Shown here: in pieces, positions 46,864 through 48,748 of the stretch
Numbering within the stretch: position 1 is the first letter of the stretch
How the letters are laid out: each line of letters opens with the position of its first letter
Source of the DNA: Magnetovibrio sp. PR-2
Lineage (GTDB): Bacteria > Pseudomonadota > Alphaproteobacteria > Rhodospirillales > Magnetovibrionaceae
DNA: 64,000 bases
Direction of reading: 5' to 3'
Assembly: GCF_036689815.1 (NCBI RefSeq)
Contig: NZ_JBAHUR010000001.1
Coordinates: 124,001 to 188,000, forward strand
Notes under the pieces: generated by a model
Seen by the model: the letters and a program-made list of their open reading frames with translations, nothing else
Database searches by the model: none
Told to the model about the DNA's origin: nothing
Made by a program: the position numbers and the translations under genes

Positions 46864-47679
46864 TTATGCGCTGTGGACAGTTTCCCACGCCAACAGTGCG
46901 TGTTTGCGCGCACTCCCCCAGCGGTAGCCGTCAACCAGCCCTGTTTCGCGGATCACTCGGTGACACGGAATGATCACGCCGACGGGGTTTGCGCCGACCG
47001 CACCGCCGACGGCCCTTGCGCTTTTTGGCGATCCCATATGAGCGGCCACACGTTTATAGGTAGACGCCGTACCCGGTGGAATTTGGATCAGCGCTTGCCA
47101 AACCTTGAACTGAAACGGTGTGGCTTTGACATGCAGCCGAACGGGGTTTTCGCGGCCTGATCCGAACAGCTGATCGACCAGCGTGGTGTCGGGTGCGACA
47201 GAGCAGAGAGACGCGTTCGGCCAGCGCGCCCGGGCTAGGTCCATGGGGGCAAGGCCGGGTTCCACAAACTCAAACCCACAAAGTCCGCGATCCGTGCGCA
47301 TTTCAACCGCGTCTCCAAAAGGGGTCGGGACGGGAGCGACAGTGATCGATAAGGCTTCCCCACCATTTTTGAACTCCCCGGGGGTCATGGCGTCGAGGCT
47401 GATGAACAGATCGTGCAGGCGCGACGGGCTCGACAGGCCCACGTCCAAGCTCGCCCCCAAAACGCTTTCGCCCGCTTTCAAAAGGTCTTGGGCATGGGCC
47501 AAGGTGAGGGCGCCCAAAAACTTTTTCGGGCTCACCCCGGCCCAGCGCACAAACAGGCGTTGAAAGTGAGAGGGGCTCAAACCCACCTCTGCCGCCACTT
47601 GGTCCAAGTCCGGCTGGTCCAAGCGGTGGTCCACAATGAAGCGGATGGCTTTTTCAATGCGGGTGTAGTCATTGCTCAT
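46864..47679 (-). CDS. AraC-type regulator fused to O6-methylguanine-DNA methyltransferase (Ada-like)
   Basis: 271 aa. Residues 1-104 form an AraC-type HTH (LDQVAAEVGLSPSHFQRLFVRWAGVSPKKF). The C-terminal part is the alkyltransferase domain with FQFKVWQALIQIPPGTASTYKRVA near 189-212 and the acceptor cysteine C239 in IIPCHRVI. The zinc-binding phosphotriester domain of full Ada is absent, so methyl-phosphotriester activation cannot occur the usual way. It diverges from nth (endonuclease III), giving a small DNA-repair locus. Confidence 0.92.
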   Translation of the reverse strand: MSNDYTRIEKAIRFIVDHRLDQPDLDQVAAEVGLSPSHFQRLFVRWAGVSPKKFLGALTLAHAQDLLKAGESVLGASLDVGLSSPSRLHDLFISLDAMTPGEFKNGGEALSITVAPVPTPFGDAVEMRTDRGLCGFEFVEPGLAPMDLARARWPNASLCSVAPDTTLVDQLFGSGRENPVRLHVKATPFQFKVWQALIQIPPGTASTYKRVAAHMGSPKSARAVGGAVGANPVGVIIPCHRVIRETGLVDGYRWGSARKHALLAWETVHSA

Positions 47680-47741
47680 AAATGGAGGTTAGCGTTTTCC
47701 GCCCTTGGAACCCACCCGGTTCTTGCGCTAGTGTTTGCGCC

Positions 47742-48323
47742 ATGAAAAAAGCTGACATCCAAGAGTTCTTCACCCGCCTGCGTGCCGGAAATCCGGAGCC
47801 AAAATCCGAGCTCAACTGGACCAATCCGTACACCCTTGTGGTCGCGGTTTCTTTGTCCGCGCAGGCCACGGATGTGGGCGTCAACAAAGCCACCGAAAAG
47901 CTGTTCAAAATCGCCGACACGCCTGAAAAGATGTTGAAGCTGGGCTTGGGCGGGCTCAAAGAGCACATCAAGACCATTGGGCTTTACAACAACAAAGCCA
48001 AAAACGCCTTGGCCATGAGCGAGATGTTGATCCGCGATTACGGCGGCGAGGTCCCCCGCGACCGGGCCGAGCTGGAAAAGTTGCCCGGCGTCGGCCGCAA
48101 AACCGCCAACGTGGTGTTGAACGTCTGTTGGGGCGAGCCCACCATGGCCGTCGACACCCACATCTTTCGCGTTTCCAACCGCACCACTTTGGCACCGGGC
48201 AAGACCGTCTTGGCGGTGGAAAAGAAGCTTTTGAAAGTGGTGCCGGACGAATTCATGGTGCACGCACACCATTGGCTGATTTTGCACGGGCGCTACATTT
48301 GTAAAGCACGCAAGCCCGATTGA
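47742..48323 (+). pseudogene. nth: Endonuclease III with in-frame TGA at the second iron-sulphur cysteine
   Basis: DNA glycosylase/AP lyase of the HhH-GPD family. Motifs are intact up to the end: LVVAVSLSAQATDVGVNKAT, the helix-hairpin-helix LEKLPGVGRKTANVVLN with catalytic lysine near residue 120, and VDTHIFRVSNR with the catalytic aspartate. The family ends in C-x6-C-x2-C-x5-C. Here C187 is followed by six residues and then TGA at 48321-48323, and the same frame continues LNCVVSDVCGFKGK to TAG at 48375-48377. So the stop replaces exactly the second ligand cysteine (E. coli C194), and the other two follow at correct spacing. A TGT/TGC-to-TGA change, a sequencing error or recoding are the options. 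As written, the product lacks the cluster. Confidence 0.85.
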
Positions 48324-48373
48324 TTGAATTGTGTGGTTTCGGATGTGTGCGGGTTTAAGGGTAAGACCACGGC

Positions 48374-48748
48374 CTAGTCTTGCAAGGTGCTCAGGCACGC
48401 GGCGCGATCCGTATTCGAGCCCTTGGCGTCCCGCGCATCAAAATGCAGGACTTTGAAGTCTTCGTTTTCGTCATAGAGAAAGACGTTCAGCACACACGCT
48501 TGGTTTTTGTACTGCCAAATGTGGGCGTTTAAATCTTGGCGGCTGAAATCCGGCCGGCCCATGTGGCTGAGCAACCACGGCCCCTTTGCGCCCAACAATT
48601 GCTGCGGGGTGATTTTGGGCTTGGCAGGTTTGGCGGGTTTGGCCGTTTCAGCGGGCTTTTGCGTCTCAACCGGTTTGGTCGCACCACCGCCGCACGCGCC
48701 AAGCGTGAGGCCGAGGCTCAATATCAAAAGCTTAAACGTTGTGGGCAT
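48374..48748 (-). CDS. Hypothetical lipoprotein
   Basis: 124 aa. Signal and lipobox LGLTLGAC at residues 12-19 are followed by a lysine/proline/alanine-rich linker near 22-46 (KPAETAKPAKPAKPK) typical of periplasm-spanning tethers. A short domain with LSHMGRPDFSRQDLNAHIWQYKNQACVLNVFLYDEN resembles SmpA/BamE-type small folds. That resemblance is tentative. Its stop lies 4 nt inside the extended nth frame. Confidence 0.7.
   Translation of the reverse strand: MPTTFKLLILSLGLTLGACGGGATKPVETQKPAETAKPAKPAKPKITPQQLLGAKGPWLLSHMGRPDFSRQDLNAHIWQYKNQACVLNVFLYDENEDFKVLHFDARDAKGSNTDRAACLSTLQD

Follow-up and report, generated by a model that had tools for sequence, protein, structure and literature searches.

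The window considered here is a stretch of 64,000 nucleotides of Magnetovibrio sp. PR-2. On its plus strand lies nth, the gene for endonuclease III, as a frame of 193 codons (47742..48323) closed by a TGA and assigned from matches to TIGR01083, PF00730 and the helix-hairpin-helix family together with congener alignments. Translation from the ATG at 47742 runs up to LHGRYICKARKPD, meets the TGA, continues in the same frame as LNCVVSDVCGFKGKTTA and then reaches a TAG (48375-48377). An in-frame ATG is also found upstream, at 47682, and the family models agree with the start at 47742. TIGR01083 scores 268.8 bits (cut-off 211.7), and both PF00730 (71.8 bits) and the helix-hairpin-helix model PF00633 (38.9 bits) exceed their cut-offs; PRK10702 aligns over profile positions 1-192 of 211 with 277 bits, under its cut-off of 405. 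The NCBIfam endonuclease III models cover residues 1-192 and 5-192, and four congeners align over residues 1-193, and the fifth, whose gene is interrupted by a contig end, aligns over 57-193. According to the profile search, the predicted product has the HhH-GPD catalytic core with its helix-hairpin-helix motif, while the [4Fe-4S] ligand set C-x6-C-x2-C-x5-C is incomplete, the protein ending at ligand 2.

The first cluster cysteine is kept at codon 187 (TGT, 48300..48302). The second, which we take to be C194 in E. coli numbering, is expected at codon 194, where TGA (48321..48323) stands in place of the TGC or TGT of relatives. Beyond it the frame remains open through the former C-terminus of the protein (48324..48374), with C197 (48330-48332) and C203 (48348-48350), as far as the TAG, presumably the original nth stop. 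C187-x6-[194]-x2-C197-x5-C203 is an exact fit to the family motif, with the TGA at ligand 2. A preliminary description of this DNA had placed the end of the frame at a TGA in codon 194, exactly at the second cysteine of the motif, with two further cysteines in frame before the TAG; sequence and translation bear it out on both points. The nth TAG is part of a CTAG palindrome (48374-48377), in which it overlaps the TAG of a convergent minus-strand ORF (48374-48748).

Related genomes carry a cysteine where the TGA stands. Sixty relatives were searched with the truncated Nth protein and 59 matched, a few of them weakly. Thirty nth genes were read, of which 29 belong to relatives represented in the 30 loci returned (G016 via a later copy, L131) and one to the congener G001, obtained separately, the whole cluster motif being read by pattern in 28 of them and by eye in two. 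Codon 194 encodes cysteine in all 30 (TGC in 16, TGT in 14). The five congeners are among these, and because all five align through the site with cysteine at codon 194, the position of the TGA at a ligand is more than chance. All four cluster cysteines are present in 29 of the 30 genes; the exception is G001, with TTC (Phe) at codon 197, the third ligand (L249:421-423, contig C361). Within the family, matches came from 17 of 18 genomes, that of the window included, and the sole match with an internal stop was the window's own nth. Within the class, the Nth search matched 377 of 385 genomes; among the matches listed, none of the 149 besides the window's own has an internal stop (counted by hand), and the best 100 of these 149 retain all four cysteines in an alignment-based count, with TGC at codon 194 in 75 and TGT in 25. 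The preliminary description had looked to related genomes for the original codon, and in the 30 nearer and 100 class genomes read it is TGC or TGT throughout. A premature stop set against intact orthologues in relatives, the mark of a nonsense (pseudogene) allele, is therefore what we find at this locus.

We also looked for the same TGA elsewhere, with a degenerate DNA pattern of the exact motif run over genome contigs, a search that variants could escape and that may exclude the window's own genome. It returned 20 stretches, one of them an nth, from Colwellia sp. RSH04 (L063:about 2400-2660), in which TGA likewise takes the place of the second cluster cysteine. Three TAA codons stand in the same frame within 80 codons upstream, and one of these is far within the homologous part; the gene looks like the remnant of a decayed pseudogene. 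Around the motif of the remaining 19 stretches we saw no Nth, as judged by eye. As to the window's own genome, PF00730 matches two genes genome-wide, nth at ATG 47742 and one that reads as MutY by eye; therefore no second nth, a possibility raised in the preliminary description, was found by this search. The MutY gene has its own cluster motif intact, and so do all the MutY loci examined in the family, 12 of 12 with the window's genome included. The Fpg/Nei family is represented by one gene.

The age of the lesion can be approached through the selection acting on either side of it. Over codons 1-193, pN/pS is 0.09-0.15 against the congeners G002-G005, which give 0.06-0.13 in pairs; for the window's gene the ratio over codons 57-207 is 0.15-0.20 in comparisons with five congeners, slightly high next to their mutual 0.08-0.17. 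By these ratios the body of nth is under purifying selection, much as in the congeners, with little or no relaxed selection visible. For codons 195-207 the values are 0.39-0.86 against G002-G005 and 0.21-0.52 among them, in a tail too short for a useful ratio; calculated from 7 to 10 nonsynonymous differences, they could hint at relaxation. Private bases, seen in this genome alone among five, occupy 28 of 579 sites in codons 1-193, 4 of the 9 in codons 194-196 and 1 of the 33 in codons 197-207. Past codon 196 the tail has thus not decayed, and from its single private site we would conclude that it was translated until lately. Given a constrained body and an undecayed tail, either the lesion is very young, or the TGA is an error, or translation of the tail still goes on. 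A minus-strand ORF (47676-48398) also covers the tail of nth; it is broken in three of four congeners, so that we reject an overlapping gene as the source of the conservation and take the ORF as a shadow ORF.

Our preferred reading is that a recent nonsense mutation in the only nth-type gene found replaced the codon for the second [4Fe-4S] ligand by TGA, and we hold it to be somewhat better than an even bet. The competing reading, which is a real contender although we rate it modestly lower, is a sequencing or assembly error, with an intact nth and a cysteine at codon 194 in the organism. All 130 relatives read (30 nearer and 100 from the class) have cysteine there, and both the tail and the body of nth look constrained; an error would explain the near absence of relaxation in the body equally well. 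Moreover, the assembly is a draft in 54 contigs, and its contamination is put at 2.31%. Against an error speaks the position of the site, deep in a 473-kb contig and away from its edges, as well as the quality of the surrounding sequence. The window was set against 530 ORFs, none shorter than 100 residues, taken from stretches of the congeners G002-G005. The best alignments claim 48,855 bases of the window and contain 12 stop positions, of which the nth TGA, supported by four of four congeners, is the only one judged to be a premature stop inside a conserved gene; by inspection, each of the other 11 was taken to precede a start, to coincide with a last residue, or to belong to an over-extended or a shadow ORF. 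With a lone premature stop over this length, the sequence of the window looks clean. The same comparison listed no frameshifts; the sole sign of these that was sought was a query whose alignment was split.

A further point against an error is that the TGA is followed by two bases which are private as well. Private changes affect three adjoining bases, the third of codon 194 and the first two of codon 195, which a single miscall would not account for, and we read this as a hint only. The cluster of private bases in codons 194-196 is not unusual, given that a maximum as high arises in 5951 of 20000 permutations of the codons and that the congeners have similar clusters. No exact repeats of the segment of at least 8 bases were found within 1500 bases. 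On these two grounds we rejected a template switch or other multi-base origin of the TGA, keeping it as a hint. Taken together, we infer that the TGA, as read from one assembly of one isolate, is real in the organism, and a recent nonsense mutation is modestly favoured over an error.

If so, the stop after residue 193 would leave a product with its helix-hairpin-helix core and ligand 1 intact, but without three of the four cluster cysteines and without the C-terminal cluster region. By analogy with related enzymes, such a 193-residue Nth is probably unstable and would be non-functional; the truncated protein would most likely be both unstable and inactive, and the repair of oxidised pyrimidines would be left to other enzymes. 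E. coli tolerates the loss of nth. The closest experimental analogue is EndoIII2 of Deinococcus radiodurans, for which PMC9268735 describes serine variants attempted at C199, C206, C209 and C215, with the same spacing as here. C199S was the sole variant that could be over-expressed, and C206S, by spacing the same ligand as the one replaced by TGA, failed. With three of four ligand variants not over-expressible in that enzyme, loss of ligand 2 and everything beyond it likely destroys Nth, chiefly through instability. For human MUTYH, too, an abstract (PMC12000561) states that cofactor retention and activity are both lost in most variants close to the cluster.

The Deinococcus failures also count against another alternative, namely that the truncated, clusterless endonuclease III is functional and maintained by selection. 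We regard it as improbable. C199S, though unstable, had an activity comparable to that of the wild type (PMC9268735), clusterless MutY proteins are mentioned in PMC11078426, the body of nth is under purifying selection and the congener G001 has phenylalanine at its third ligand, all of which would suit a working truncated enzyme. Nevertheless, the four cysteines persist in the remaining four congeners, in all 25 further nearer relatives that were read and in all 100 genomes read from the class, and the tail of an established truncation should decay, which that of nth has not. Our literature search, under clusterless endonuclease III and under MutY 'lacking the iron-sulfur cluster', found no paper on either term.

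Within the genus, a broken cluster-ligand codon in nth occurs in two of six genomes (codon 194 is TGA here, and codon 197 encodes Phe in G001), compared with none of the 125 relatives read outside it (25 nearer and 100 from the class), a comparison that was chosen after seeing the data and whose two sites both come from assemblies and await read support. The G001 assembly is 67% complete in about 430 contigs, and its nth is cut by the contig start; over codons 57-207 the constraint on this gene is ordinary (pN/pS 0.08-0.17). We consider its phenylalanine at the third ligand a weak lead. That the genus is losing its need for the iron-sulphur cluster of Nth, with the truncated enzyme working without it, seems to us a touch less probable still than a functional truncation in this genome alone. 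The nth of G001 also has Ala for Pro in the LPGVG hairpin. On its 3' side lies an ORF that resembles a cytosine-5 DNA methyltransferase by eye (L249:1933-2915), where the blastn match to the window breaks off.

The least probable reading of all is that the TGA is recoded or read through, as selenocysteine, cysteine or tryptophan, so that a full-length enzyme is made; its appeal is that the stop falls precisely at a cysteine, that the tail still looks constrained and that selD is present, and it fares poorly against the following. A profile search that detected the E. coli control found no selA in the genome, and none of the seven selB matches is over the cut-off (best 91.9 against 242.25 bits), which is what other translation GTPases would be expected to give. 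The top match of the tRNA-Sec model, with 47.1 bits (gathering score 47), is a tRNA-Ser with anticodon TGA. No anticodon TCA occurs in the 37 RF00005 matches read with ARAGORN, a list without tRNA-Tyr and tRNA-Ile and therefore incomplete. The RNA 3' of the TGA folds at -7.3 kcal/mol, in comparison with a shuffle mean of -11.68 (z +1.70), and 196 of 200 shuffles fold at least as well; no stable SECIS-like hairpin was found directly 3' of the TGA, and the impression of the preliminary description that none was obvious holds up. As for selD (369.1 bits, C27:6511-7449), it adjoins mnmH, the gene for tRNA 2-selenouridine synthase (C27:5220-6218; L040/L072, G000:C27:5220-7449), which accounts for its presence, so that it does not point to selenoproteins. 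Selenium in this genome is probably used for tRNA selenouridine only, selD and mnmH being present without selA or a selB over its cut-off. The relatives read have plain cysteine codons. With selA and tRNA-Sec not found, selB under its cut-off and no stable hairpin, selenocysteine was rejected, and a dedicated suppressor tRNA at codon 194 is likewise very unlikely. The sel genes, on which the preliminary description would have let the question turn, give a divided answer: selA, selB and tRNA-Sec fall on the side of exclusion, whereas selD is there, beside mnmH. Its lean towards error or mutation among three readings stands on the sel genes, the hairpin and the cysteines of relatives, and the recoding that it had kept as an option is now unlikely.

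The stop therefore has the look of a recent mutation of the ordinary kind, or of an error in the sequence, and not of a novel form of decoding; a conserved cysteine position occupied by TGA is by itself no evidence of selenocysteine. If the TGA is real, one more base-excision-repair gene would be lost, which might raise the mutation rate. A truncated Nth would matter more only if it were active, in view of the role of the EndoIII cluster being called still disputed (PMC9268735).

Food for comparison is offered by three known systems. Selenoproteins are known in which UGA stands at a site that is cysteine in relatives, and nth resembles them in that its TGA aligns with such a cysteine; it differs in the selenocysteine machinery and hairpin discussed above, and in that the site is a structural cluster ligand. 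The clusterless MutY proteins are, like the product of this nth, helix-hairpin-helix glycosylases without a complete set of cluster cysteines; they are described as existing proteins (PMC11078426), whereas here we have one genome, a stop and an undecayed tail. The closest likeness is to endonuclease III itself, as modelled by TIGR01083, PRK10702 and PF00730. The gene shares with it the catalytic core, the helix-hairpin-helix motif and the first cluster cysteine, and its aligned start is the same as in four congeners; it departs from the usual enzyme at codon 194, where the stop takes away cluster ligands 2 to 4.
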